64,000 nucleotides of DNA from positions 1 to 64,000 of the forward strand of contig JAOAFZ010000005.1 in assembly GCA_026415975.1 (NCBI GenBank), written 5' to 3'. The translations under genes were made by a program, and so were the position numbers. The notes below the pieces were generated by a model, which made no database searches, was not told the origin of the DNA, and was given only the letters and a program-made list of their open reading frames with translations. Source of the DNA: Patescibacteria group bacterium (lineage in GTDB: Bacteria; Patescibacteriota; Microgenomatia; UBA1406; GWC2-37-13). This document shows positions 3,331-18,931 of this stretch, piece by piece (positions within the stretch are counted from its first letter, which is position 1; each line of letters starts with the position of its first letter).

Positions 3331-4719
3331 ATGCCACGGTTCCCTGTCCAGCTTGCAATCATGCTCCTGTTACCGCTACTCCTCCTGTACGTCCTCTTAC
3401 AAACCTCTACCGTGCAGAAGGGAATCCTGATCACCGATGCTAATAACTACTTTTGCCACGCCGAACGCTTCGATCAGGGTGCGGTACTCTACCGGGATAT
3501 TCACCATGCGAACATGCCCGGGGTTTCGTATGTCGCCTGGCTTTATCGCACGCTTACCTTCCGGGATCTGCACGCGTTTAACGCTACTGCCGCCGTGGAG
3601 GCAGCAGTAGTTACATGTCTCATCTTCTTGATCGCGCTCCGGCTCCATAAACGCCCTGAGGTGGCTCTCCTAATTGCCTTCGTATACCTGTTTTCTACGG
3701 TTGTTCTCTCCACGTCGCGTTTCCAGAACGCGATCTTTACGGCACTACTGGCAACAGTGAGCGCGTATTACTTGTTGCTCCGCGGTAAACCCATTTTTGC
3801 AGGTATTGCCGCGGGTGTTGCGATTGCGATAAAGCTCTATATGGCGCCGGTACTGGGCGCGCTCCTTATTGCCTGCTGGCTCGAGGATCGGAAAACCGCA
3901 CTCCGGTTTTTTGGTGCATCCGTCCTCACCGGCTTCCTGATCCTTCTGCCAACCCTCATACTGGCCCCGAATGAGTTCTTGCGTCAGATTCTGTCTTCAA
4001 CTTTGCGGGACGGTCCTGCCGAGAGCCGCTGGAACGTGATCTGGTACTTTCTCTCCACGGACTGGCTGATCGCTCTCCTTATCTTTGCCGGCTGTTTTCT
4101 GTGGAGCCGGAACCGGTTTCTGGTCCTTGCAAACATCTTCGGTATTGTCTTTTTCGTGATCTTCCGCGATGTTTACCTGCTGTATTTCAATCTGCTGGTT
4201 CCGGCTGCTGTGCTCGGTCTTGGTTACCTCATGCAGATGGGCACCACCGTGATCGGACGAAAAACCACCCTGGCCGGGGTGGTTACCGTTTTGATCGTGG
4301 CAGTGACGGGCGCGATACGTGCTTATTCAGCAAACCTGCAAACCGGTATTATTCCCGATGAAGACTCCGTGCGCCGGGTAATGCGGCAGTACCGCCCGGA
4401 TGCCGTTTTCGGGAGCAGTGCGCTCATGCAGGGCATCAGCTCTGCAACAGGGGTCCCGAACTTCAACAACTACTGCGATCTCCACCCTAACCTGTTTGCC
4501 TCAGGTCAGCTGGATAGGGAAAAGATTACAGAGCAGGTGGTGTCTTCGCGTACCATGGTCGTTCTTACTGCTGCCGAAAACCTGCCGCGGATAACCACGT
4601 ACGGCACTGATTTTACCGATGTTGCGCTTGTTATGAGGCGCTGCCGCCGCGTACACCAGGAGCCGATGCGCTGGCATGACCGCAATGTGGCAGTGTTTTA
4701 TATGTGCGGCGAAAGGTAA
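3331..4719 (+). CDS. GT-C-like polytopic membrane glycosyltransferase
   Basis: A 462-residue protein with roughly ten membrane segments. The first extramembrane loop after TM1 carries 'DANNYFCHAERFDQG' followed by 'LYRDIHHANMPGVSYV', the layout of GT-C enzymes (dolichyl/undecaprenyl-phosphate-sugar dependent, ArnT/PMT-like), where an Asp just after TM1 is catalytic. The C-terminal ~110 residues form a soluble domain. It probably transfers a sugar from a lipid carrier on the outer face of the membrane; donor and acceptor are unknown. A TATCAT box at 3320-3325 ends 5 nt before the ATG. It converges with the large VirB6-like gene: the two stop codons are adjacent. Confidence 0.65.
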   Translation: MPRFPVQLAIMLLLPLLLLYVLLQTSTVQKGILITDANNYFCHAERFDQGAVLYRDIHHANMPGVSYVAWLYRTLTFRDLHAFNATAAVEAAVVTCLIFLIALRLHKRPEVALLIAFVYLFSTVVLSTSRFQNAIFTALLATVSAYYLLLRGKPIFAGIAAGVAIAIKLYMAPVLGALLIACWLEDRKTALRFFGASVLTGFLILLPTLILAPNEFLRQILSSTLRDGPAESRWNVIWYFLSTDWLIALLIFAGCFLWSRNRFLVLANIFGIVFFVIFRDVYLLYFNLLVPAAVLGLGYLMQMGTTVIGRKTTLAGVVTVLIVAVTGAIRAYSANLQTGIIPDEDSVRRVMRQYRPDAVFGSSALMQGISSATGVPNFNNYCDLHPNLFASGQLDREKITEQVVSSRTMVVLTAAENLPRITTYGTDFTDVALVMRRCRRVHQEPMRWHDRNVAVFYMCGER

Positions 4720-7700
4720 CTACCATTCCTTGTTTTTCTCGTCATCCGCCCCGTATTCCTTTAGCTTCGGTTCATCGCTACCGTATTCTTTCAGGCCGCC
4801 TTCCTCGGCACCGTATTCCTTCAGTGGTTGGTTAGTCTTGTCTGTGTGGTCCCATGAGAGCTTGCGTTCGCCGGCATACCCGGTGTCTCCGTTTGCCGGG
4901 CCGGTGTTTCCCGTGCCGGTGTCTGAGTCATTGTCACCCGTGTCGCTCTGCTGTTCCAGGTATGCTTTATTGATCTCCGGAGCCGCCTGCACCTCGACTT
5001 GGGCGCGTTCCTCGATCGTGGTCGGGCCCTTTTCTTCGGGGAGATCCATCTGCATGAGTTTGGGTTCTTCCTTCTTATTCGTTTTGAGTTCCAGCAGCGT
5101 ATCTTCTTCTTCCTCCTGCTTCTTTTCAAGTTTCCTGCGGAGGCGGTTTTCGCGTTCCAGGATCTTTCTGGTGGTCTTGGCGGCTTCAAGCTTCGCCTTG
5201 AGGTAGGTGATTAGCTGATCTCCTTTAAGGTTGTTGATCATGAAGATCGGAATAATAAAGCCCAGTTCATCAAGGCCCTGTTGCTGGATTTCAGGGTTCG
5301 GAGAGAGGATCTTGTTCATGACGTTTGTGATCGTCACAATATCGGACTCAACCCACTCCTCTCGGCTCTGGATGTTCTCCTGCACAGGAATCTCGCCCTC
5401 TTCGTACTGGTGTTCCCACATCTCCTTGAGTTCCTCATATTCCTCGATGGTTACGCTCGGGGGGACGGCCACAATCTTCTCGATGTTTTCTTCGGGCTTA
5501 GCGGTTATCTCGAGCTGTTCCTTTACAATCTCGGCGGCTTCCTCGACCTTGACGTCTTCTCGCTTTGCAACCTCGGCTACCACTTCGTTTGCGGTCCGGG
5601 TGTTGTCGCTGATTACCCGGAGCACCTTGCGGACTACCACGGGGGCGTTTTCGGGCTTGACATCTGTAACACCGGCCTGTTCGCGAATTGCCTCGTTTTT
5701 AAGCGCTTCCTGTGCCAGTTTCTCGGCAAGCTGCTTTTCGGCATCGGTGGGTGTAGGTGCAGGGCCGGCGCCGACACCCTGATCGCTGCCGGCTTCTGCT
5801 TCCTTCCCCTTCTCGCCGGTCACTGCCGATACCTGGAGCTCGGCTTCCGTCTTGGTGGGCTGCTCGGGGGGGCCGCCCTGCGGTCCGCTTACCTCGGGGG
5901 AGTCGGGGCCTGTTGCGTCACCGGAGGCGCTGGCAACCGCCGCTACAGCCTGTTCCACCTTCTCGGCCTCGACTTTATTCTCCTCGGAGAAGTTCAGGAT
6001 CAAGTCGCGGGTCATGAACATGGTGCCCATTATGTTCAGGGCGGCCTTTACCTTGCTTTCCTCGACCTTGGCCACTACGGTGATCGACGGCACGACCTGG
6101 TTAGCCGGCTTGTTCATGCTCTTGCTGTAGGCGGAGACGATAGCCCTGACCTGCTGGTTGGTAAGTCCGGCACGATTGGCGATTGTCTGAATAGCCCTAT
6201 CGCTCTTTTCTATCTGGTTCATGAACTTCGTCATGACGTTCTGCGTTTTCTCGGCCTGGTGTGTTATCGACGCTTCAATTACGCTCTTTACGGTATCACT
6301 TTGTAAGTTCAGCCTCTTTGCTAGCTCCCGAACAGCCTGATTTATGCTGGATGCCTGCGATCTTGCAAGTGCCTGGAGCACGGTACGTGTCTTCTCGGCG
6401 CTCACATTCGCGCTCTTTGCAATTGCACTTACACTCTTGTCACTCAGGGTTATAGTAGCGTTTGCCCCTGTGAAAGCCGAGGCCGATACCTGCGAAGACG
6501 AAGAAGATGTCGCTCCCGAGACAGATCCTGCTTTTATTGATGCCGAAAGTGTCCGGCTCAGCTGGTCCATAGACTCTGCCGAGATCGTTGCCGAAGTTTT
6601 GACCTTAACATTTGATTGGATTGTCTTTACCAGTTCTTCGCGAATCTTGTCGCGTTCGTAGGACGAGTTTGATGTGGATGATAACAGTCTCCGTGCTACG
6701 GAGTCCTGTTTGATCGCACGATTGAAGAGTTCCGTACGCATATTCATAAACTGCTGCTTCTCTGCGGTAGTTGATACCTGTGCAGGATTAGCGAGAGCGG
6801 CAAGATTCTTTTGCACTGCCGACTTGCGGGTCTGATCGGCCTCTATCCGAGCGATATCAGTCAGTTTAGTGACCTGGATATTCAGTGACTTCGTGATATC
6901 GGCTGTGCTGGTGTTCCGGATATGCTCCATTGACGCAAGCTTCACGTTAAACTTGGTGTCCAGTTTAGTATCGGTTGGAACTTTCAGTACGTGCTTGAGA
7001 TCAAAAGTCGGCGTGGGACCTTTCTTTACCGGATTATTCGACTCCCGTATTTCGTTGTACATTTCGAAAAGCACATTCTTCATTGCATAAATCCCGTCGC
7101 AGCAGTAGTCGCGGAATATCCGGAGCAGCCACCACGGGAAGAACGTTACCGCCCAGAGCATGATAAGAGTTATCACGTATTCGGTAAAGGTATCTACATA
7201 CGAGCCGGAATTGATTGCCGACAGACGCCGGTCACCGATCTGGGCGGGGCCGCCGTACAGAATGTTTATGGCCGTCGGGTAGGTATAGCCAATCAGTGGA
7301 TTAGCCGCATTGGCAAAATCCCTGGTCGGGATTACGCGCGAGAAGTCGAAGGTGAAAGGAATGCCGGCCTTCCAGATCTTGGCCAGGGCACCAAGAAACA
7401 GCGCGAAGAGTGGCCCGTACATGAGCCACTGGAAAAAAACACCAATCCAAATCCAGCCAATGTTGCGGATAAATACGAACGGCATCAGCAGAGCAAGGAA
7501 CGGAGCTACAAAAAGTAGGAACCACAAGAGGATCTTCCGGAGAATAATCATGGTGCCCATTATGTAATAGGTCATATTCGTAAGGTCGTAAAGGAAAAGC
7601 TTGGTGTTGATGGATTCCTGAACACGGAGATTCAGATCACGGCAGCCGACGAAATCGGTGTAGTTGCGTTCACTGCTCCCCAGCGAACCGGTGTTTGAGA

Positions 7701-8316
7701 AGTAAATATTAAACAGATCCCGTCCTCCCAGATTATCGATAAAGAATCTCATGAGGATCTCTGAAAGCTGTATCAGGAGGAGAACCACAGATGCAGATAG
7801 TGCAATATACAATAGCATTATCCCTATTTTGATAAGGGTAGGCCAAAGCTCAAGATTCAGGGTAAAGTTTGCACGGCGGCTCATAATAAACCCGAGTCCG
7901 AAAATAGCTGCTACTAGAATTACAAAGAAAAATGCGACCGAGCTTGTAATTCCCCAGATTTCACGCAGTACCGGGTGGTCGTCAATTGCCCGGTTATTTA
8001 TTGCCCAGTAGATAAATTGGCGGGCGCGTTCGTTGGCTTTTCCCTGTGCTGTGATCTTCGGATCTTCAATCCAGAAGTGCCTGGTGGTCGGATATCGCTG
8101 GAATTCCTGAAATGAGCGGGCACAGGGTTCACCAAGCTTCTGATAAATCGGATCCATTTCTTTTGGACAGCTCCTGGACTCGGATGTGCCACAAGGGATC
8201 GGTGTGATGGCGTTCCGGGTAATCTCGAAGTAATCCAAGGAATCACTTGCGTGCGACTGCAGAGGAAGCACCAGCAAGGTAAGAGCGATGAGAATGGTGT
8301 ACAGGATTTTTTTCAT
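4720..8316 (-). CDS. VirB6/TrbL-like giant membrane protein with helical-repeat cytoplasmic or periplasmic tail
   Basis: About 1198 residues from the ATG at 8316, preceded by GGAAG and starting with a clear signal peptide (MKKILYTILIALTLLVLP). Residues ~110-460 hold about seven hydrophobic segments in the VirB6/TrbL manner. The remaining ~740 residues are soluble: degenerate ~30-residue helical units of the form 'AIAKSANVSAEKTRTVL', 'ELAKRLNLQSDTVKSVI' and 'TIANRAGLTNQQVRAIV', then an acidic, Lys/Glu-rich region, ending in three LKEYG repeats. VirB6 proteins form the inner-membrane channel of type IV secretion systems; such enlarged versions occur in CPR genomes near VirB2-like proteins, as here (17959 and 18554). 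It is divergent from the A1 gene. A reading frame that starts further upstream at 8430 is less likely because it lacks the signal peptide at its N-terminus. Confidence 0.75.
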   Translation of the reverse strand: MKKILYTILIALTLLVLPLQSHASDSLDYFEITRNAITPIPCGTSESRSCPKEMDPIYQKLGEPCARSFQEFQRYPTTRHFWIEDPKITAQGKANERARQFIYWAINNRAIDDHPVLREIWGITSSVAFFFVILVAAIFGLGFIMSRRANFTLNLELWPTLIKIGIMLLYIALSASVVLLLIQLSEILMRFFIDNLGGRDLFNIYFSNTGSLGSSERNYTDFVGCRDLNLRVQESINTKLFLYDLTNMTYYIMGTMIILRKILLWFLLFVAPFLALLMPFVFIRNIGWIWIGVFFQWLMYGPLFALFLGALAKIWKAGIPFTFDFSRVIPTRDFANAANPLIGYTYPTAINILYGGPAQIGDRRLSAINSGSYVDTFTEYVITLIMLWAVTFFPWWLLRIFRDYCCDGIYAMKNVLFEMYNEIRESNNPVKKGPTPTFDLKHVLKVPTDTKLDTKFNVKLASMEHIRNTSTADITKSLNIQVTKLTDIARIEADQTRKSAVQKNLAALANPAQVSTTAEKQQFMNMRTELFNRAIKQDSVARRLLSSTSNSSYERDKIREELVKTIQSNVKVKTSATISAESMDQLSRTLSASIKAGSVSGATSSSSSQVSASAFTGANATITLSDKSVSAIAKSANVSAEKTRTVLQALARSQASSINQAVRELAKRLNLQSDTVKSVIEASITHQAEKTQNVMTKFMNQIEKSDRAIQTIANRAGLTNQQVRAIVSAYSKSMNKPANQVVPSITVVAKVEESKVKAALNIMGTMFMTRDLILNFSEENKVEAEKVEQAVAAVASASGDATGPDSPEVSGPQGGPPEQPTKTEAELQVSAVTGEKGKEAEAGSDQGVGAGPAPTPTDAEKQLAEKLAQEALKNEAIREQAGVTDVKPENAPVVVRKVLRVISDNTRTANEVVAEVAKREDVKVEEAAEIVKEQLEITAKPEENIEKIVAVPPSVTIEEYEELKEMWEHQYEEGEIPVQENIQSREEWVESDIVTITNVMNKILSPNPEIQQQGLDELGFIIPIFMINNLKGDQLITYLKAKLEAAKTTRKILERENRLRRKLEKKQEEEEDTLLELKTNKKEEPKLMQMDLPEEKGPTTIEERAQVEVQAAPEINKAYLEQQSDTGDNDSDTGTGNTGPANGDTGYAGERKLSWDHTDKTNQPLKEYGAEEGGLKEYGSDEPKLKEYGADDEKNKEW

Positions 8317-8424: not shown

Positions 8425-9423
8425 ATGCAATCGTTGCTGCGAAACCCGCGTGTTCTTCTGATCGCAGGGGGAGTTCTTCTCCTCCTACTCCTTCTGGTGA
8501 TCAGCATCCTCACCCGTGTCGGTTCAGGCGGGATTGCTCCCAGGAGCCCGGAAACGGGTGCCGCCACAGGTGAGAGCGGTTCTGCGGCCCCCACCGGATT
8601 TGGAGGAGAGAATCCGTTTGACCGGGATCCCGATCCGGCAACCGCAAATATAGATCCGAATATTGGCCCGCAGGAAAGGCAGCAAGCTCTTCAGTCTGGT
8701 GCGTTCGCAAAAGTCGGAGAAGAATTTCTCTACGAGAACGACCTGAATTATGAGCTGGCATATTATCCTACGCTTCCCGGTCAGGATCCTGAACAGATTG
8801 TGGTTGCCAAGATGATCGAGGACTCGATCATTTTGCAAGGTGCCGCCGCAGACAAGCTAATTACATTGGATACCACCGTATTCAATTCTCCCGATAAAGA
8901 TTATGCGAAGCGCACACAGCTTGTTGCGAAGGCGCGGGAAATTGTTGAAACAAAGTCGGTGGTACTGGAGGGTACAGTTATTGCGATCTGGTTTCATAAC
9001 ATGCAGCCTGGGCCGGCTGGCTACGAGGCAGGAAAAAAACTAGCATCGGATGAGATAAAAAGGCTCCTTGCTGAAATCCGGGCAAAACGGTTAACCCTAA
9101 AACAGGCGGGCGAGCAGATCAAGAATAATGCAGCTCTAGCTCAGGTCGATCCGAACTACCGTGGTAATGCTATCTTCGATTTTGCTGTAAGGCGCGGGGG
9201 CAAGATCACCTATAGCCCGGATATAGATGCGGAGATTTTCAAATTAACTCCTGGGCAGGTATCAGGTGTGTTGACCGGTAAGGATCTCGATCCCCTTACC
9301 GGGAACCGGATCGATGCAGTTTACATGATTGCAGAGGTGACAAATCGGAATACAAGTGCAATTAGTAATTTTGATTCCTGGCTTGACGGGAAGAAGCGTA
9401 TCTATGAGATTGCCCGCTATTAA
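8425..9423 (+). CDS. Family A1: membrane-anchored SurA/PpiC-N-like protein
   Basis: One N-terminal membrane anchor, a Gly/Ser/Pro/Asp linker to about residue 85, then a helical domain beginning 'FAKVGEEFLYENDLNYEL' and continuing 'VAKMIEDSIILQGAA'. This resembles the SurA N-terminal chaperone domain (VNGEPIT..DLD..V....I...LL.Q.A). The C-terminal part is reminiscent of a foldase but has no convincing PPIase catalytic pattern. It is a clear paralog of the 11764 gene ('DSIILQGAS', 'NYAKRIALV', 'GYDQGKKIA'). The start at 8425 is chosen because the -10 box covers the alternative ATG at 8416. Its end overlaps B1 by 20 nt. Likely an extracytoplasmic folding or assembly factor for its B partner; this is inferred. 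Confidence 0.7.
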   Translation: MQSLLRNPRVLLIAGGVLLLLLLLVISILTRVGSGGIAPRSPETGAATGESGSAAPTGFGGENPFDRDPDPATANIDPNIGPQERQQALQSGAFAKVGEEFLYENDLNYELAYYPTLPGQDPEQIVVAKMIEDSIILQGAAADKLITLDTTVFNSPDKDYAKRTQLVAKAREIVETKSVVLEGTVIAIWFHNMQPGPAGYEAGKKLASDEIKRLLAEIRAKRLTLKQAGEQIKNNAALAQVDPNYRGNAIFDFAVRRGGKITYSPDIDAEIFKLTPGQVSGVLTGKDLDPLTGNRIDAVYMIAEVTNRNTSAISNFDSWLDGKKRIYEIARY

Positions 9424-11761
9424 TCAGCTTTGCAGGTTCAGTGTGCCGCTCCTTCTTGTGCCACTTCTTTTCGCAGTCGGCGCAGTAAGGCCGGTCTCGG
9501 CGTATGCTCCAAACGTAGGAGGTCGTGTTTTTACCGAGTCTGGTGCTCCGGTACCCGGGGTATGGGTTCAGTGGGAATCAAACGAAGAGGGCAATGATAA
9601 CAACGAAGTCAACAAAGGTACTCATTACCGTTATTCCGGCACAACAGAGGCGGGGAGGTTCTTTTTTAAAGGGTGGGATCTCGACGGAACCAGGAGGGAG
9701 AACGGGCAGGTTTACTCGATATACGGGCAGTCCGAGTTTGACGAACGGATTGATCTGAATTACGATCCCGCTGACGGAAAAGAGGCCCGGCGGGCCTCCA
9801 GCAATCAGTACAATATCTTCAACTGCAATAATGAGGTTAATAATTTCAGCCTTAAACTTCCGCCCTCTCTCCAGAACGCGCGAGTAGACGCGCGCTGGCG
9901 CCGGGATAATAGTGCCGGGTGGTCTTCGTGGACGCCGAATCGTGTCAGTATGCCCAAGGATATATTCAACAACAGCCATGATTACGAGGTAGAGTTTCGT
10001 ATCAGGCTACCGAAACAGTCTTCTATCCGAGATATGGAACGCGACATTGAAAAAAATACTATTTCGGATGTGAATACGCTTCAGCCGGCATGTCTCAAGG
10101 CTGATCTTTGCACTGCCGAGGGAAAGAACTGTTCGAGTGGCTATACTCCAACTGCAGGCAAGCACAGGGTAATTCTCTCACAAATCGGCGGCTCCGGTAT
10201 TGGAGAGGCACAGCGCAAGCTCACTGTCGGGGATCAAACACGCCCGATCTGGCTTACAGAATGCATTCAGACAGGGACAGCTACTGCTCCGTCTTACACC
10301 TGCACAACCGGCAATTCACAGCTTGACCTGAAAATCTTTAAAAAGGACAATGCATCTCTTTTGTACACAAGATACGGTTACTCTGCTCGGATTTTCTTCT
10401 CTGATGGTGTGACGCAGACAACACCGGAGATTACCCAGGCAAACCGGCGGGATTCCTACGAATGGGAGACAACAATCGACCCTGATAAAGTACAGCCGGC
10501 GCAGCTTACCAGCGTATTTATCGCTATGTGGGATCCAGGCCAGTCAAGCCCACCAAGTTCTGGAGATAGACCAACACAACTGCAGGCTACTCTATCGAAT
10601 GCGGAACGCTGTAAGCTGATAATCGATCCATACGGTCGTGTTTTCGATACTCTTACGCTTGAACCTCTCGCCGGTGCAACCGTAGTCTTAACCAGACAGC
10701 GACCGGGGGGTGCATTTACTCCGGTTGTGCAGAGTGACGTCGTGGGTACGATTCAGAATCCACAAACAACTTCCCGTGATGGATCGTTCTCTTTCCTTGT
10801 GCCTCCTGGAACATACCGACTCAGCGCCAGCCGCCAAGGCTATATTTATCCGGCAACTAACATAAGTCCGCTGGCACGACAGATGTACTCAAACCTCTAT
10901 ACCGGACAGGATCTTAGGGTAGTGGACACTATGATCCAGACGGATATCCCGCTGGAGCCGCTGAATCCCGGAGAAGCAATTGCTTACGCGCAGAACAACC
11001 CGATCCGGATTCAGTCATATTTTCAGATTGTTGATCCTGCGGCTGGTACCTATCGTATCGAAGGGTCGGTGACCCATCCCCTTGCAACCGTTAATCTCTA
11101 CACCGGTGTGGAAAACCGGAAGCTTCTGCATACAGCAACAGCAGATTCATTCGGATACTTTAAAATAACACTCCGCCTTGATGCAATGGATAAAAATATA
11201 CGGATTACAGAACTTGAGGCAAGGAAAAAGGACGTCCCCGCATTCAAGTACACTGGCGATGAGTACATAGTTCAGCTTGCTCCGGTCTTGGGAGATCTGG
11301 AAGGTTTTGCGGTTGGCTCTGGTGGCACTCTTCTGGGGAATGCAGAGGTTGGTATCTATATGGGCAGTAGCAATGTTCCCGTTTTCCGAACTCGTGCCGA
11401 TGCTGACGGGCGGTTTACAGTTCCACAGGCTGCACTCCCTGTGCTTCCGTATCAGATCGGATTCACCCCGTCAGGAGGACGAACTGAACAGGTATCGACT
11501 GGTGAGTTCCTGGCACGTAACGCGATGCTGAGTCACCCGAAGAATGTGTATATCGCCCGTGGATCAGATTCGACCACTGTGTTGGGAGAATATTCCCAAT
11601 CGAGACCAGGGATCAATGACGCGCTCGGTGCAGAACTAAACAGGCGAACACCGTTCTCGATTCTCGGAGCTATTATGGCTGTCGCAGTGGTGGTAATTGC
11701 GACAGGTCTTATTGTTGTATATTTCCGTTCCGGCAATCCACCGGTACGGCGCCGCCGTTAA
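9404..11761 (+). CDS. Family B1: large surface protein with carboxypeptidase-regulatory-like domains
   Basis: Begins with a signal peptide (MRLPAINQLCRFSVPLLLVP...VSA) and ends with a membrane segment followed by basic residues (PPVRRRR), so the bulk is outside and the C-terminus is anchored. It contains at least three beta-sandwich domains of the carboxypeptidase-regulatory (CarboxypepD_reg) kind: 'VGGRVFTESGAPVPGVWV' near residue 35, 'DPYGRVFDTLTLEPLAGATV' near ~410 with 'DGSFSFLVPPGTYRL', and 'LEGFAVGSGGTLLGNAEV' near ~650. Cys pairs occur in the middle section. Paralog of the 12749 gene over its whole length. Adhesion or structural role is probable. It overlaps A1 by 20 nt and A2 starts 2 nt after it. 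Confidence 0.75.
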   Translation: MRLPAINQLCRFSVPLLLVPLLFAVGAVRPVSAYAPNVGGRVFTESGAPVPGVWVQWESNEEGNDNNEVNKGTHYRYSGTTEAGRFFFKGWDLDGTRRENGQVYSIYGQSEFDERIDLNYDPADGKEARRASSNQYNIFNCNNEVNNFSLKLPPSLQNARVDARWRRDNSAGWSSWTPNRVSMPKDIFNNSHDYEVEFRIRLPKQSSIRDMERDIEKNTISDVNTLQPACLKADLCTAEGKNCSSGYTPTAGKHRVILSQIGGSGIGEAQRKLTVGDQTRPIWLTECIQTGTATAPSYTCTTGNSQLDLKIFKKDNASLLYTRYGYSARIFFSDGVTQTTPEITQANRRDSYEWETTIDPDKVQPAQLTSVFIAMWDPGQSSPPSSGDRPTQLQATLSNAERCKLIIDPYGRVFDTLTLEPLAGATVVLTRQRPGGAFTPVVQSDVVGTIQNPQTTSRDGSFSFLVPPGTYRLSASRQGYIYPATNISPLARQMYSNLYTGQDLRVVDTMIQTDIPLEPLNPGEAIAYAQNNPIRIQSYFQIVDPAAGTYRIEGSVTHPLATVNLYTGVENRKLLHTATADSFGYFKITLRLDAMDKNIRITELEARKKDVPAFKYTGDEYIVQLAPVLGDLEGFAVGSGGTLLGNAEVGIYMGSSNVPVFRTRADADGRFTVPQAALPVLPYQIGFTPSGGRTEQVSTGEFLARNAMLSHPKNVYIARGSDSTTVLGEYSQSRPGINDALGAELNRRTPFSILGAIMAVAVVVIATGLIVVYFRSGNPPVRRRR

Positions 11762-11763
11762 AG

Positions 11764-12777
11764 ATGTTCTCCGGGGAGGGAACCCCTGATAATAAGAAAC
11801 TACTGCTGGTTGCAGGAGGTATTCTTGGATTACTTCTTATTATTATTGCAGTCCTCACACTCGTCCGGAACTCATCACCTGCCGGACAACATGCAGCAAA
11901 TCAGCGTCAAGGAATAATAACTCAAGCCCCGCTGGAAATCTTTGACTCAAGTTATACCAGCCCTCAGCAGGGTAGTTATTTGGACGGCGGCGGAGACAGC
12001 GGCCCGACTTCGACACCTCTTCCGACCAGACCGGCTGCGCCGCGAGCAGGTGTGATTGCACGCGTCGGTGAAGAGCTGATTTATAATGTTGATCTAAATG
12101 AGGAAGTCGCCTCGTTTCCCCCGAGTGATGATCCTGAGGTTCGTGAAAAGTTGTTTCAAAAAATGGTAGATGATTCCATTATCCTCCAGGGAGCATCCCG
12201 GGAAGGGCTTATACGGATGAATGCAACGGTATATAACTCCGCTGAAAAAAATTACGCAAAGCGGATTGCTCTGGTACAGGATGCGAAAGAAAAATTAATA
12301 GCTGCCGGAGACAGTTATAGTGGTACTGTTGTCGCACTTTGGTTTTTTAATCAACGTCCTGGTCGCGTAGGGTATGACCAGGGAAAAAAGATTGCACGAC
12401 AGAGAATAACGGACTTGCACAGCAGGGTGAAATCAGGTGCAATTACCATGGAGCAGGCCGGCGAAGAGCTTCGCAGGGATAGTTCTCTTTACCAGGTAGA
12501 CGAGGCATTCCGTATAAATGCTATTTATACCTTTACCTCCAACGTAAAAGCTCAATTTAACTACGATCCTGGGTTTGAGAAAGTCATGCGTGGTCTTAAA
12601 GTTGGGGAAATTAGTGACGTTTATCTTGGAAAAGGTACCGGTGGTGACGGGACTACCCGGGATGCAGTGTATAAGTTCGGAAGAGTTGATAAGATAATTA
12701 CTAATAGAGGCTATTCGACAATAGAAGAATGGCTTGAAATAAACCGGAATGAATATCCCGTCACTCGCTATCAGTAA
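11764..12777 (+). CDS. Family A2: membrane-anchored SurA/PpiC-N-like protein
   Basis: 337 residues, same plan as A1: N-terminal anchor (~residues 12-33), Pro/Ser/Gly-rich linker, then 'VIARVGEELIYNVDLNEEV', 'KMVDDSIILQGAS' and 'VYNSAEKNYAKRIALVQDA'. The two A proteins align across their soluble parts, including 'ALWFFNQRPGRVGYDQGKK' versus 'AIWFHNMQPGPAGYEAGKK'. It lies 2 nt after B1 and overlaps B2 by 29 nt, so it should be in the same transcript. There is no Shine-Dalgarno motif, so translation probably depends on coupling. Function as an extracytoplasmic chaperone for B2 is inferred from the pairing. Confidence 0.7.
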   Translation: MFSGEGTPDNKKLLLVAGGILGLLLIIIAVLTLVRNSSPAGQHAANQRQGIITQAPLEIFDSSYTSPQQGSYLDGGGDSGPTSTPLPTRPAAPRAGVIARVGEELIYNVDLNEEVASFPPSDDPEVREKLFQKMVDDSIILQGASREGLIRMNATVYNSAEKNYAKRIALVQDAKEKLIAAGDSYSGTVVALWFFNQRPGRVGYDQGKKIARQRITDLHSRVKSGAITMEQAGEELRRDSSLYQVDEAFRINAIYTFTSNVKAQFNYDPGFEKVMRGLKVGEISDVYLGKGTGGDGTTRDAVYKFGRVDKIITNRGYSTIEEWLEINRNEYPVTRYQ

Positions 12778-15154
12778 TATTTTCAGAGGCACGCTACCGG
12801 TTGTTGTGACATTCTTCTTTTTATATGCCGTAACTCCTGTCTTAGCGGGAAATGTCCCGAATAAACGGGTATGTTTGGTAAATGATAAAGGCGTTCCCAT
12901 TAACTATAACGGCCAAGGTTTGTGGGTAACCCACAACAATGCAACTGGATCAAAATGGACTGGACAGACAGATGCGGCTACAGGATGTGTAGATTTTCAG
13001 GCTGACGAGAGCACAATGGATGCCCGGTTTCCCCCGGGCGTGCAGGCAGACACCGACTTTGACGGTCGCCCGGATACACCCAGAAGAACCGATGCTGGCG
13101 GCGGGAATGGAGATCTAGGCTGTGCATCTGGTCCGTTTGGTTTTAAGGTACACCTCCCGAAAGATTGGGAAAACACTTGGGAGTGCCAGAGTGTTGGGAC
13201 TCCGAACGGGCCTTTTCCCTGTTGCCGAAGCCAGGAAGAAAGGGATAATCCCGATTTGAGGCCTGCAGGTGGCTGCAATGATTGCAAGGCGCATGCTTCG
13301 GGATACGAAGGAGAGTATACTGAGAAGCTCTGTTACTGCGACCGGAGCACGCACAACAACCTTCCGGACTCTGAATGTCCAATATGTTTCCATAACGATG
13401 GAGTTCAAGTGAATGTTCGGCTGGAATGCCGGTCAAAAAAGCAGACATCATCCCGAAACCTTGATAAGCCACAGATTCAGCAGTTTAATCCCCGCGAGGG
13501 CATCAACCTGGCTTGCCTTCCCGCCGATGTATGCAAAGCGGAAGGGGCCGCAGCTGACAGTGGTGGAGCGGAATGTAGCAAAAAGACACCTGCGAACAGT
13601 CTCACGCGCCGGGTAAAGCTCTACCGGGTTAAAAACCTGAAACAGCAGCTCTCTATGCTGGATGCCTCAAAACCGGTGTTTCTGGTGGAGTGTGTAATGG
13701 AAGGAACCGACGAAACGAATGCCAGTTATCGCTGTACTACAGGTGATTCTGCTCTCGACTTACAAAATGGCCTCACCACAGACGGTAAACCAAATTTTCA
13801 ACATCTAAAGGATTTGTACGGGTACACTGCAACGCTTTATACGGCGGAGGGTACTCGACGTGTAGGATCAATTGATCTGGTGCAGCCGCTTCTTGACGAT
13901 TCGGTAGTGCTTGATGAGTATGAATGGGAAACTACCACAACAAAGCCAACAAGCAGTGTCTTCATGCTTATGTACGATGAGCAGAACGCCAATGCTGCTT
14001 TATCGGGGGACAAAACTTCCCAGAAGCAGTCAAAGCTATCTTTTGTAGAAAACTGTACACTAATCATAGATCCATACGGGCGTGTCTTCGATCGTGTTAC
14101 TCTTGAACCGCTCTCCGATGCTGATCTGGTAGTCCTGACCAAAGAGGCATCTCCCGACTCTCGTCCGATTGCACGGCAGACAACAAGGGAGGATGGTGTT
14201 TTTTCCTTCCTCTTACAGCCCGGTACGTACAGAATGACAGTAGCCCGTCCGGGATACACCTTCCCTGCGTTTCTGGAACCCAGGGAAGGATATAAACCGG
14301 CGTATGAGAATCTACATCGCGGGGAGCCGTTTACGGTGCAGGATCGTTTACTTCTTTTTGATGTTCCCATGGAGCCGGCAAATTCTGGCGTATCAATTAA
14401 ATACGCCCGTGCCAACAAGCCAAAACTCATGGAGCATTTCCAGTCTATTGGGAAAGCCGGGGAGACCTACAGGGTTCAGGGGAGAGTGTCACACTCCCGT
14501 TCTCTCGTGGCTGTCTATGCAGGTATTTTCCGAAACGGCGAGATTGTTCGTGGCAGGCGGATTTCCTATACACAGGCCGACGGGTATGGACGGTTTACCC
14601 TGGAGTTTCCGCTTTCGGTGTTAAATCGTAACGAAACCATTTACGGTATAAAAATTACCAAAAACTCTAAAATATTTCGCATTCAGGGGGCCGAAGAGAG
14701 CTTTACCCGGATTGATCCGGTTCTCCATGAAATAGTCGGAACAGCCTTTGATAGTTCCGGCAACAGGCTTCCCGGTGCCACGGTAAAAATACGTATTCCC
14801 CATGCGGAGACCCCTTACCGAACTGTCATTGCGGACCGGGAAGGACGGTTCCGGATAGCTGCGGAGGACCTTCCACCAGTAGGTTATTCTCTGGAGTACG
14901 AAACTCTGTCAGGAGTGCGTAAATCAATTGATACCGGACAGTTTCTTGCACAAAATGTTGCTGCAGGAATACAGCCGGGCCGGTATTTTGCAGCAGTGCC
15001 TCCTGAAGATACTGTGGTTGCCGGAGTATCTGATGATTACCAGAGTTCCCGGCAGTTCCGGCCAGATGTCTGGCATCTGTTTGCAGTGTTTGTCCCATTT
15101 TCCTCTGCACTGCTATATCATGTTTATTTGAGAAAACGGAAACGGAAAAGATAG
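12749..15154 (+). CDS. Family B2: large surface protein with carboxypeptidase-regulatory-like domains
   Basis: 801 residues: signal peptide (ending TPVLA), a Cys-rich segment at ~110-250 with many paired cysteines not present in B1, then the conserved block 'LIIDPYGRVFDRVTLEPLSDADL' and 'DGVFSFLLQPGTYRMTVARPGY', a further domain 'IVGTAFDSSGNRLPGATV', and a C-terminal membrane segment ending in KRKRKR. It is the paralog of B1 with strong similarity in the C-terminal two-thirds and divergence in the N-terminal third, as expected for a surface protein whose exposed part varies. Overlaps A2 by 29 nt and is followed 4 nt later by the shortened fusion gene. Confidence 0.75.
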   Translation: MNIPSLAISNIFRGTLPVVVTFFFLYAVTPVLAGNVPNKRVCLVNDKGVPINYNGQGLWVTHNNATGSKWTGQTDAATGCVDFQADESTMDARFPPGVQADTDFDGRPDTPRRTDAGGGNGDLGCASGPFGFKVHLPKDWENTWECQSVGTPNGPFPCCRSQEERDNPDLRPAGGCNDCKAHASGYEGEYTEKLCYCDRSTHNNLPDSECPICFHNDGVQVNVRLECRSKKQTSSRNLDKPQIQQFNPREGINLACLPADVCKAEGAAADSGGAECSKKTPANSLTRRVKLYRVKNLKQQLSMLDASKPVFLVECVMEGTDETNASYRCTTGDSALDLQNGLTTDGKPNFQHLKDLYGYTATLYTAEGTRRVGSIDLVQPLLDDSVVLDEYEWETTTTKPTSSVFMLMYDEQNANAALSGDKTSQKQSKLSFVENCTLIIDPYGRVFDRVTLEPLSDADLVVLTKEASPDSRPIARQTTREDGVFSFLLQPGTYRMTVARPGYTFPAFLEPREGYKPAYENLHRGEPFTVQDRLLLFDVPMEPANSGVSIKYARANKPKLMEHFQSIGKAGETYRVQGRVSHSRSLVAVYAGIFRNGEIVRGRRISYTQADGYGRFTLEFPLSVLNRNETIYGIKITKNSKIFRIQGAEESFTRIDPVLHEIVGTAFDSSGNRLPGATVKIRIPHAETPYRTVIADREGRFRIAAEDLPPVGYSLEYETLSGVRKSIDTGQFLAQNVAAGIQPGRYFAAVPPEDTVVAGVSDDYQSSRQFRPDVWHLFAVFVPFSSALLYHVYLRKRKRKR

Positions 15155-15158
15155 TTAT

Positions 15159-16325
15159 ATGGATTTTCCCAAGAAACCTTCATATCGGAATTTGCTCTTT
15201 ATAGCTAAAGGATCTTTCTTTTTGCTAGCACTGGTTCTGGTTTCTGTACTTGGCTTTATTGCTACCGTTGGTCGGGAGAAAATTTATCGGGCGGATATCG
15301 ACTATCTAAGATCTTTATACGATGGACCTGCCGCAGAGATATCCCAGAAAGAGTTTCTAGACCGGATTGCCGGTGATTCCGCAATATTCCAGAGCGGAGC
15401 CGCAGCCGGATATATTTCACTGACAAACGATTTTTTTGACGCTCTGAATAAAAATTATTTGCTCCGTCAACAAAAAATACAGGAAGATGATCAGAGTGCT
15501 ATGGATGCATTGCATATGTCCGAGCAGGCTACCCTCTCGAATACCGCCGGATGTCAGCTGGTACAGGCCCCTTTTGGGCGGGTCTTTGACGAGTGTACGC
15601 TTGAATCTATGAGTGGAACTTCGGTGACGCTCCTTTCACGGAGTTCCACCGGATCGTTTACCAGATTCTCAGATCGTGTAACCAATCCACAGGTCACCGA
15701 GGCAGACGGGGCGTTCACATTCTATGCCCCCGATGGGATTTATCGCCTGGAGGCAGTGCGGCGCTACGCTTCCGAAAACCCCGTCACCTTTATTAGTCAG
15801 TTCCAGGAGACTGACCGTTCCGGAAACCCGTGTCGCATTGATGCCAAAGTTTCCCACCCGAGGGCAACGGTTCTCCTTATCGGAAAAACCTCCGGTGGTC
15901 TGGAAGCAATAAAGTATCCGGTTACACTTGCAGGCGATGCGTTCTCAAAACTTCTCTGGGGCTCACTCGATTTGCTTGGGTCATTGATTGTCGTACAGGC
16001 CGCGACAGATCCGTCGCGTGCGGTAATTGGTCTTGATCCTGTTCTGGCATCTGTAGCGGGGGTAGTAGTCAATGTTCCTTCTCAGGTGAAGTCCGTGATG
16101 AGTACCTCCCGCTTTCTGGTCATAAACCCGGAAAACTCCAGCCGAATGATCGCAGGCAAAACTGCCGCTGTAATACCGCAGAACGTTCTGGGAACAACCA
16201 TCATCCTTGAAGGCAGACTCCCTGAATGGGTGGCATATGTGATCTCTGCCGGTCTCATTCTGCTAGTGATGGTTGCAGCCACTGTAGTCATCTCATACAA
16301 TAAAGTCAGGAAGATAAAGCGTTAA
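15159..16325 (+). CDS. Shortened A-B fusion protein (third unit of the array)
   Basis: 388 residues. The N-terminal part is an A-type segment: membrane anchor, 'REKIYRADIDYL', 'EFLDRIAGDSAIFQSGAA', 'DFFDALNKNYLLRQQKI', matching 'DSIILQGAA ... DKDYAKR' of A1. At about residue 125 it switches to a B-type segment: 'CQLVQAPFGRVFDECTLESMSGTSV' and 'ADGAFTFYAPDGIYRLEA', matching the central CarboxypepD_reg-like domain of B1/B2. The C-terminus has a membrane segment and KVRKIKR, as in B proteins. The natural fusion supports a physical A-B partnership. It could be a regulatory or decayed third copy; the frame is fully open, so it is probably expressed. Confidence 0.7.
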   Translation: MDFPKKPSYRNLLFIAKGSFFLLALVLVSVLGFIATVGREKIYRADIDYLRSLYDGPAAEISQKEFLDRIAGDSAIFQSGAAAGYISLTNDFFDALNKNYLLRQQKIQEDDQSAMDALHMSEQATLSNTAGCQLVQAPFGRVFDECTLESMSGTSVTLLSRSSTGSFTRFSDRVTNPQVTEADGAFTFYAPDGIYRLEAVRRYASENPVTFISQFQETDRSGNPCRIDAKVSHPRATVLLIGKTSGGLEAIKYPVTLAGDAFSKLLWGSLDLLGSLIVVQAATDPSRAVIGLDPVLASVAGVVVNVPSQVKSVMSTSRFLVINPENSSRMIAGKTAAVIPQNVLGTTIILEGRLPEWVAYVISAGLILLVMVAATVVISYNKVRKIKR

Positions 16326-16406: not shown

Positions 16407-17927
16407 ATGTATTCACGATTACTATCAGGAACAATTCAAGGTGTTACCGGTGTACCAGTAGAAGTAGAAACTGATGTTGCGAGAAAAGGATTTCCGTCGG
16501 TATCAATTGTAGGTCTGCCAGGTAAGGCAGTAGAGGAGGCAAAGGAACGCATTCGGAGCGCACTTGCAAATTCAGGATTCCGTATGCCGGATTGTCGGGT
16601 TACTATCAATCTTGCACCGGGGGATATTCCAAAAACAGGTACCGGCTTCGATTTACCGATGGCGGTATCGCTGCTTGCAGCGGATGGGATTCTTGATCCT
16701 GAACGCATTAAACGCTGGTTCTTCCTTGGTGAGCTGGCACTTGATGGTGCAATCCGGCCGGTACCCGGTGTCCTTCCTCTTTTACGGGCGCTTTCTAAAT
16801 CGCAGACAGAAACTGCCGTCGTGCCGGAGGAATCCTATCCGGAGGCGGCTCTCGTGCCTTCGGTACAAGTTATACCGGTAGCTACGCTTACGGAGCTGGT
16901 TGCGATATTGCAGGGTCAAAAGCAGCCTGCTTTGCCGCAGACGGTGCTACCGCAACCAGAAGCACGGGATCCTGCGCCCCTTGATGCTATTCGCGGTCAG
17001 GAGGGTGCGAAACGGGTTCTTGAGATAGCAGCGGCGGGGTTTCATAACGTGTTGATGCATGGACCACCGGGAAGCGGAAAAACAGCACTGGCACAGGCTT
17101 TTCATTCCTTATTGCCGCCGCTTACCGGTGAAGAACTCCTGGACGTCCGCTGTATATACTCGGCAGCAGGGAGAATGTATGAAATAGATCCGTCCAGGCG
17201 TCCCTTTCGATCGCCGCATCACACTGTTTCGCGTCAAGGTCTGATTGGCGGAGGGGTACCTCCTCAACCCGGAGAGATTACACTTGCACACAGGGGCGTT
17301 TTATTTCTGGACGAACTCCCGGAGTTTTCACGGAGTACACTCGAGGCACTCCGACAGCCGGTGGAAGATGGTATCGTAAGAATATCACGGGTTCGCACCT
17401 CTGTAGAGATGCCGTGCCGGTTTCAGCTGATTGCTACTGCAAATCCGTGTCCGTGCGGCTACTTAGGTCATGCAACGCGCATGTGCACCTGTACACCCGG
17501 AGTTATCGCAGCTTACCGGAAAAGGCTTTCCGGTCCGCTCCTGGATCGTATTGATCTGCACACACTCGTAAATCCGGTATCCGAATCCGAACTCTTTAAC
17601 GCGGCATTAACAGAGAATCAAACTGAGCGGGAGCCCTGCCGCTTTGCTCGGATTGAAGAAGCAGTTGCCAGGCAGGAAAAACGTTTTAACGGACTTCCTA
17701 TCTGTCGTAATTCCGAGCTTGATTCTACTACTACCCGAAAGTTTATACAGCTTACGACGGATGCCGAGTTACTACTCAAAAAAGCAATACGGCGGTATGA
17801 TCTATCAACACGTGCTTTTTTTCGTGTTCTAAAAGTCTCCAGAACCATTGCCGATCTGGATTGTTCTGACAACATTACCGTTCAACATATTGCTGAGTCG
17901 GTACAGTATCGCGCGACATCCTATTGA
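16407..17927 (+). CDS. comM: YifB/ComM family Mg-chelatase-like AAA+ ATPase
   Basis: 506 residues, normal for ComM/YifB. N-terminal domain of the Lon-protease-like fold ('GLPGKAVEEAKERIRSALANSG', 'NLAPGDIPKTGTGFDLPMAV'), then an AAA+ core with Walker A 'GPPGSGKTALA' near residue 217, Walker B 'GVLFLDELPEF', and a Cys-containing insertion 'ATANPCPCGYLG' typical of the Mg-chelatase_C-containing subgroup. The C-terminal helical domain includes 'LSTRAFFRVLKVSRTIADL'. In transformable bacteria ComM is a hexameric helicase that extends branch migration of incoming DNA; whether that role applies here is inferred. A TATACT box at 16395-16400 ends 6 nt before the ATG. Confidence 0.93.
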   Translation: MYSRLLSGTIQGVTGVPVEVETDVARKGFPSVSIVGLPGKAVEEAKERIRSALANSGFRMPDCRVTINLAPGDIPKTGTGFDLPMAVSLLAADGILDPERIKRWFFLGELALDGAIRPVPGVLPLLRALSKSQTETAVVPEESYPEAALVPSVQVIPVATLTELVAILQGQKQPALPQTVLPQPEARDPAPLDAIRGQEGAKRVLEIAAAGFHNVLMHGPPGSGKTALAQAFHSLLPPLTGEELLDVRCIYSAAGRMYEIDPSRRPFRSPHHTVSRQGLIGGGVPPQPGEITLAHRGVLFLDELPEFSRSTLEALRQPVEDGIVRISRVRTSVEMPCRFQLIATANPCPCGYLGHATRMCTCTPGVIAAYRKRLSGPLLDRIDLHTLVNPVSESELFNAALTENQTEREPCRFARIEEAVARQEKRFNGLPICRNSELDSTTTRKFIQLTTDAELLLKKAIRRYDLSTRAFFRVLKVSRTIADLDCSDNITVQHIAESVQYRATSY

Positions 17928-18553: not shown

Positions 18554-18931
18554 ATGCTACCCTTTTTTACCACTCTGCTCGCCCAGGGACCAATCCGGGA
18601 ATGGTACGACGACCCCAGTAATCCCGGTAACAGCGGCTGCATGGTGGATGGCGTTCCCACGTTAAAGTGCGCGGAGATCGTCTTTACGAATCTTCTGGTA
18701 ATGGCAAGCGGACTGGTAATCCTTATTCTCTTTATTATGTTTGTAATCGGGGCCTTCAACTACCTTACCTCCTTGGGAGATGAAGAAAAGATGACCAATG
18801 CCCGGAATACGTTTACCTATGCCATTATCGGATTGGTCGTATTTGTAAGCGCAGGGCTTATTCTGTGGATTATTGATATCCTCTTCCTGGGAGGTCAGGG
18901 GCGCATCTTCGAGTTCCGGATCGGTGTGTAA
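18554..18931 (+). CDS. Second VirB2/TrbC-like small membrane protein
   Basis: 125 residues: short N-terminal hydrophobic start, a small extracytoplasmic segment with one Cys pair (GCMV...LKCAE), then two membrane segments (~43-70 and ~86-112) joined by 'YLTSLGDEEKMTNARNTF'. The loop is the same kind as 'WITSGGDEEAVGSARKKI' in the preceding gene, so the two are paralogs with the VirB2/TrbC plan. It follows the first copy by 61 nt. Both could be alternative subunits of a surface filament or pore. There is no recognisable Shine-Dalgarno sequence at its start. Confidence 0.65.
   Translation: MLPFFTTLLAQGPIREWYDDPSNPGNSGCMVDGVPTLKCAEIVFTNLLVMASGLVILILFIMFVIGAFNYLTSLGDEEKMTNARNTFTYAIIGLVVFVSAGLILWIIDILFLGGQGRIFEFRIGV

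Follow-up and report, generated by a model that had tools for sequence, protein, structure and literature searches.

The SurA, PrsA and PpiD chaperones, which combine a SurA_N domain with a parvulin-like domain, are membrane-linked and operate outside the cytoplasmic membrane, and PpiD is also anchored through an N-terminal transmembrane (TM) segment (PMC9643414). These chaperones are generalists with many clients. Greater specificity has been proposed for Lif/LipB and CpaB (PMC4713064), which likewise carry an N-terminal TM segment, are encoded beside a single secreted client and are thought to assist the folding of that client. Patescibacteria are ultrasmall and depend on hosts, and how they make the proteins with which they contact these hosts, and fix them to the cell, is largely unknown. 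Among the surface systems reported for this phylum are a type IV secretion system (T4SS) derived from MPF-FATA, with arrays of VirB2 pilins (PMC12102498), and the type IV pili of Saccharibacteria, whose loci encode a large exposed protein for which contact with the host has been proposed (PMC12206443). The candidate adhesins of the latter, PilX1 and PilX2, are pilin-like proteins with an extra C-terminal domain.

The locus described below lies in a window of 64,000 nucleotides (the whole stretch of DNA analysed) from a Patescibacteria genome, and encodes proteins of the SurA/PrsA type, termed A, next to large exported proteins, termed B or, where their bodies differ, exoproteins. A shares with SurA, PrsA and PpiD its domain architecture, its link to the membrane and its predicted location, but it is gene-paired or fused with one exoprotein instead of serving many clients. 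It shares with Lif/LipB and CpaB the N-terminal TM segment and the adjacency to a client, from which its dedication is deduced; unlike in those systems, the body of the client is freely swapped and natural fusions with the client occur, and a Pfam scan of A1 and A2 gave no match to a Lif-type family. The array is placed between a VirB6-like gene and VirB2-like pilin genes, recalling the Patescibacteria T4SS, and in other lineages related cassettes adjoin pilM/pilN or pilD and, in contrast to PilX1 and PilX2, consist of a SurA-like partner and an exoprotein. The T4SS survey reports no adhesin and, in the sections considered, gives no account of the B gene or of a SurA-like partner; those considered of the Saccharibacteria pilus paper do not describe the cassette. 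A search of the open-access literature found no case of a Patescibacteria exoprotein paired with a protein of the SurA/PrsA type.

The array and the A protein

The initial annotation had described a five-gene array in the order A1-B1-A2-B2-(A-B) with overlapping genes, and the open reading frames (ORFs) were confirmed at the coordinates given. The five co-directional ORFs, all on the + strand, are tightly packed, with overlaps of 20 b between A1 and B1 and 29 b between A2 and B2, and gaps of only 2 b between B1 and A2 and 4 b between B2 and AB. Codon usage gave an in-frame coding signal for all five genes, including both halves of AB. The array and its immediate neighbours are as follows.

4720..8316, - strand: 'VirB6-like' polytopic, long-tailed membrane protein, named by architecture; divergent from the array
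8425..9423, + strand: A1, with N-terminal TM segment, SurA_N-like and parvulin-like domains and the C-terminus YEIARY
9404..11761, + strand: B1, with signal peptide, N-domain, B-core containing PF13620 domains, C-terminal TM segment and basic tail
9491..9913, + strand: N-domain of B1 (approximate bounds), shared with A-partners at other loci and missing from solo B
10088..11593, + strand: B-core of B1 (CTTG..., DPYGRVFD...LEP; approximate bounds), common to the solo B of relatives by alignment and tree
11764..12777, + strand: A2, second SurA/PrsA-type partner, 39% identical to A1
12749..15154, + strand: B2, second surface protein, with N-domain (by HMM) and B-core (PF13620); sister of B1
15159..16325, + strand: AB fusion, in which the TM segment and SurA_N of the A part precede the DPYGRVFD domain from B; a C-terminal TM segment is also present
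16407..17927, + strand: ComM/YifB homologue, in the same place after solo B in L044, L048 and L052
17959..18492, + strand: T4SS_pilin, VirB2-like (PF18895, 30.5 bits against a cut-off of 26.6)
18554..18931, + strand: T4SS_pilin, VirB2-like (PF18895, 42.7 bits against a cut-off of 26.6)

The identity between A1 and A2 extends over 254 aa (E = 1e-53). An AF2 model of A1, obtained with a five-sequence alignment (pLDDT 74.5), comprises a TM segment (residues 8-33), a SurA_N-like domain (~93-176) and a parvulin-like domain (~179-310) with the secondary structure beta-alpha-alpha-beta-alpha-beta-beta. When the model was compared with the PDB by Foldseek, the nine best matches were all of the SurA/PrsA/PpiC type, including SurA, PrsA, H. 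pylori CBF2 and LIC12922 (E 4e-6 to 1e-2), with low overall TM-scores (0.2-0.3), so that A resembles these proteins at the level of its domains and not in their arrangement. SurA_N_3 was recognised in distant members of the family (E = 2e-15 in L128 and 9e-6 in L067), and SurA chains were retrieved with the A6 profile of 13 members (E ~3e-6). In A1 and A2 themselves the SurA_N domain fell below the Pfam cut-off, Pfam Rotamase gave only matches below cut-off in A, and a search of this genome with PF00639 (Rotamase) on its own gave zero matches. The SurA-type nature proposed for A is upheld by the Foldseek matches and by SurA_N_3 in the distant members. As judged from sequence and model, A belongs to the SurA/PrsA type, is anchored in the membrane and combines a SurA_N domain with a parvulin-like one; it may have chaperone or isomerase activity.

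The two active-site histidines conserved in parvulins are missing from A: neither strand position holds a His in any of the 13 aligned sequences, the positions having been assigned by motif and not by structure alignment. The roles of these histidines, and the activity remaining in a Pin1 double mutant, have been reported (PMC2678132), and their absence from A does not prove that isomerase activity has been lost. The generic SurA_N protein that this genome encodes separately lacks an adjacent exoprotein partner.

Association of A with exported proteins

A search with the single sequence of A1 detected A in just 4 of 96 genomes, and its wider distribution became visible with profiles, which placed A in 18 of the 373 genomes of the class and in further classes. 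In each of the 17 class loci of other genomes that could be evaluated, the start of an ORF encoding a signal peptide lies -29 to +35 b from the stop codon of A; 14 of these signal peptides were called by an automatic hydrophobicity rule, which only 15 of 61 background genes pass, and three by eye. A binomial value of 4e-11 for this pairing was not relied on, being overstated because only 14 of the 17 pass the automatic rule and the loci are related. In the other classes, the A matches with E < 1e-20 were all associated with an exoprotein (16/16), eight as pairs and eight as fusions. The weaker matches there included four further fusions, all at pilus loci (L139, L140 twice and L141), as well as nine weak SurA_N matches (L142-L150), of which seven had no exported neighbour and two had only an ORF of ~200 aa; another tally of the weaker matches gave four fusions, two cases with an exported neighbour of ~200 aa and nine with none. 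These nine look like generic SurA_N proteins, so among weak matches a cassette A cannot be told from such proteins by its E-value alone. The use of all 12 fusions as evidence was rejected as partly circular, since generic SurA_N proteins give E-values similar to those of the four weakest, and the count was restricted to E < 1e-20.

Fusion was also observed at a class locus (G402), where a full-length A is joined in frame to the N-terminal part of its partner, and at L130 an A-exoprotein pair adjoins a fusion. In the A tree the state changes five times between paired and fused, and well-supported branches force a minimum of two of these changes. No TM segment beyond the signal peptide was found by a hydropathy rule in any of the 22 complete separate partners from other genomes, and the sole TM segment of the fusion proteins is that of A.

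The earlier proposal of a conserved A-B pair is thus sustained by the 17 of 17 evaluable class loci and by the frequent occurrence of both parts in one polypeptide in other classes; a lack of such pairing in related genomes, named beforehand as a ground for refuting the proposal, was looked for and did not appear. The accompanying idea of a surface machine belonging to this one lineage found no support, since the A-exoprotein cassette is phylum-wide in Patescibacteria, not private to one lineage, and is usually linked to type IV pilus genes in other classes. Adjacency without function, in which surface genes merely hitch-hike together and AB is a decaying pseudogene, would agree with the patchy distribution of A among the class genomes (18/373) and with the degenerate appearance of AB and of a truncated A gene (A5) on contig C3. 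This reading is disfavoured and considered highly improbable, given the pairing at 17 divergent class loci and in 16/16 strong matches of other classes, the co-variation of A with the N-terminal part of its partner (see below) and an AB gene that is open and coding-like throughout.

Modular B proteins and the origin of the array

B1 and B2 are 33% identical over 573 aa (E = 5e-84), and both contain PF13620 (E = 9e-16 and 2e-13, respectively). The client domains are cysteine-rich, and a C-terminal TM segment of its own was found in B1 and, more weakly, in B2. A structure model of B1, based on four sequences, was unusable (pLDDT 40, pTM 0.23). Of 96 related genomes, 54 encode the B-core (CTTG..., DPYGRVFD...LEP; PF13620), and A is missing from nearly all of them; the solo B proteins lack, in the alignment, the N-terminal extension of the A-paired B proteins. 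An HMM of this N-domain, seeded from the N-termini of five A-partners with B1 included and B2 left out, recovered the non-seed B2 (E = 7e-10) and other A-partners, and otherwise almost nothing above threshold, two solo B proteins appearing at E = 0.003. Homology of the class N-domain with the start of the exoproteins of other classes was unsupported (hhalign probability 11%).

The similarity among A proteins was found to follow that of the first 260 aa of their partners (Spearman 0.31, Mantel p = 0.0002, 26 pairs) and not that of the remainder (Spearman 0.04, p = 0.30, 21 pairs), in a test from which shared ancestry and signal-peptide similarity were not fully removed. A-partners with a B-core are present only in this genome and in KatS3mg090/091. 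In the latter, B is placed far off in the B tree and A groups with a locus of another class in the A tree, and from these placements the A/N-domain unit and the B-core appear to have met two times. The B-core is separate from the A cassette, relatives carrying it alone. A frame change close to the N-terminus interrupts the A gene of KatS3mg090 (L068 9500-10100) and puts the TM part in another frame; this could be an assembly error.

The fifth gene of the array, taken by the initial annotation for a natural fusion, proved to be one: residues 32-109 of AB match A2 (E = 4e-6), with no other A2-matching stretch, and residues 123-262 match B1 (E = 2e-21). AB lacks the parvulin part of A and the N-domain of B, and its retention of the TM segment and SurA_N of A together with the DPYGRVFD domain of B is what a single deletion within an A-B pair would leave; AB is probably such a deletion-fusion product. 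In the B tree, B1 and B2 are sisters (SH-aLRT 85) and fall with AB and the two B genes of contig C9 into a single clade (99*); since all five B-type genes of this genome belong to it, the array is attributed to duplication within this lineage, in line with the tandem duplication claimed earlier. The cassette occupies the site of the solo B of relatives, between the VirB6-like gene and ComM with the T4SS pilins, and was duplicated; the last copy would have lost the parvulin part of A and the N-domain of B, probably through one internal deletion, leaving a short fused AB protein.

Contig C9 of the same genome carries an A3-B3 pair and a convergent B4. On contig C3 (L073, G000:C3:34000-48000) a distant homologue, A4 (3706-4713), shows an analogous layout with an unrelated partner, a cysteine-rich and proline-rich surface protein of 838 aa (4719-7235), and A5 (7249-7851) is an A gene reduced to its N-part.

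Role of A and genomic setting of the cassette

The account that we favour, with moderate confidence, is that A is a dedicated and lasting membrane partner, both foldase and anchor, of the exoprotein encoded downstream. Translation of the two would be coupled through their genes, which overlap or nearly abut. A would be inserted through its N-terminal TM segment, with the SurA_N and parvulin-like domains facing outside, and would bind the N-terminal part of the exoprotein as it emerges, as the co-variation and the fusions suggest. It would then assist folding and remain bound, acting as the membrane anchor of an exoprotein that usually has none of its own and whose body would be exchangeable. 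We infer the binding of A to B, and the function of the pair, from sequence.

Alternatively, A may be a transient dedicated post-translocational foldase, similar to PrsA or Lif, with the exoprotein released or anchored otherwise. Acinetobacter offers known examples of membrane-anchored chaperones dedicated to secreted proteins (PMC4713064), and the SurA/PrsA fold and membrane anchor of A, the strict adjacency to the exoprotein, the cysteine-rich client domains and the C-terminal TM segment of B1 would all suit such a role. We nevertheless regard it as rather unlikely, because the repeated permanent fusions fit release poorly unless they are cleaved, the partners elsewhere lack any other membrane anchor and the parvulin histidines are missing from A. 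Lasting attachment is favoured over release by the partners without an extra TM segment and by the fusions in which that of A is the sole one. B1, and weakly B2, do not need A as an anchor, having a C-terminal TM segment of their own, and within the window anchoring by A may be redundant and folding its main role.

The genes flanking the array were examined for a T4SS. The product of the 'VirB6-like' gene has six TM segments before its long tail and is 42-49% identical to that of the same gene in six relatives. It gave no Pfam or NCBIfam match, and its six homologues gave no Pfam match either, so the name 'VirB6/TrbL-like' derives solely from architecture and neighbours. The earlier placement of the array between VirB6/TrbL-like and VirB2-like genes holds for the pilins, which are recognised by PF18895, and needs amending in two respects, the VirB6 name being without a family match and the ComM/YifB gene (16407-17927) separating the array from the pilin genes. 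B is divergent from and adjoins the VirB6-like gene in 31 of the 52 related genomes that have both, and in several relatives ComM and T4SS pilins come after solo B; this locus of VirB6-like gene, B, ComM and pilins is distinct from the A cassette and extends across the family, and B there is mostly unaccompanied by A. Many further B copies of the family sit away from it.

The array may be chiefly part of a local T4SS-like apparatus, with B proteins as adhesins and A proteins as assembly factors alongside the VirB6-like protein and the VirB2-like pilins. This possibility, which is compatible with either role of A, draws on the divergent neighbours in 31/52 genomes, on the nearby T4SS_pilin genes (17959 and 18554) and on the lack of a reported adhesin in the T4SS survey (PMC12102498). 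We hold it to be doubtful, as many B copies of the family are located elsewhere, the A pairs of this genome also occur on C9 and, with another surface protein, on C3, and the VirB6 identity is unconfirmed by family models.

In other classes, the cassette adjoins pilM/pilN or pilD at 13 of 18 loci (PilM_2 E ~1e-50), and at L067 it comes after a pilus operon; the pilM locus of this genome, on contig C4, carries neither A nor B. We propose only tentatively that Patescibacteria possess a two-component display of their own, in which variable exoproteins would be mounted on a pseudo-parvulin membrane receptor (A) specific for an N-terminal docking domain, at type IV pilus or T4SS loci, for gripping host cells. 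The cassette may be the way in which these bacteria fold and mount surface proteins. As the pair of A and an exported protein is recognisable in sequence and pilus-linked, it provides named candidates for host contact that can be listed in any genome, and the repeated natural fusions supply ready single-chain complexes in which the grip of a SurA/PrsA-type protein on its partner could be studied structurally.

Several smaller observations were made at these loci. In relatives (L042, L043, L045 and L052) the VirB6-like and B genes adjoin a gene for a small protein that has a TM segment at each end, and in L043 and L052 this protein carries a cohesin domain (PF00963, E 4e-7 to 4e-8). In the window, a delta-60/DUF5122 beta-propeller repeat protein is encoded at 10-1620 (E = 1e-10 and 1e-5, under the curated cut-offs), and a thioredoxin-like membrane-anchored protein at 2105-2734 on the - strand (PF00085, E = 6e-4, under the cut-off), near the cysteine-rich B array. 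At L135 (G531:C9, 2432-8680), a 2082-aa fusion of a SurA-like part with a very long exoprotein lies beside further large surface genes, in a stretch without pilus genes. At L140 (G491:C14, 970-5589), tandem A-exoprotein fusions of 764 and 766 aa come right after a prepilin peptidase gene.
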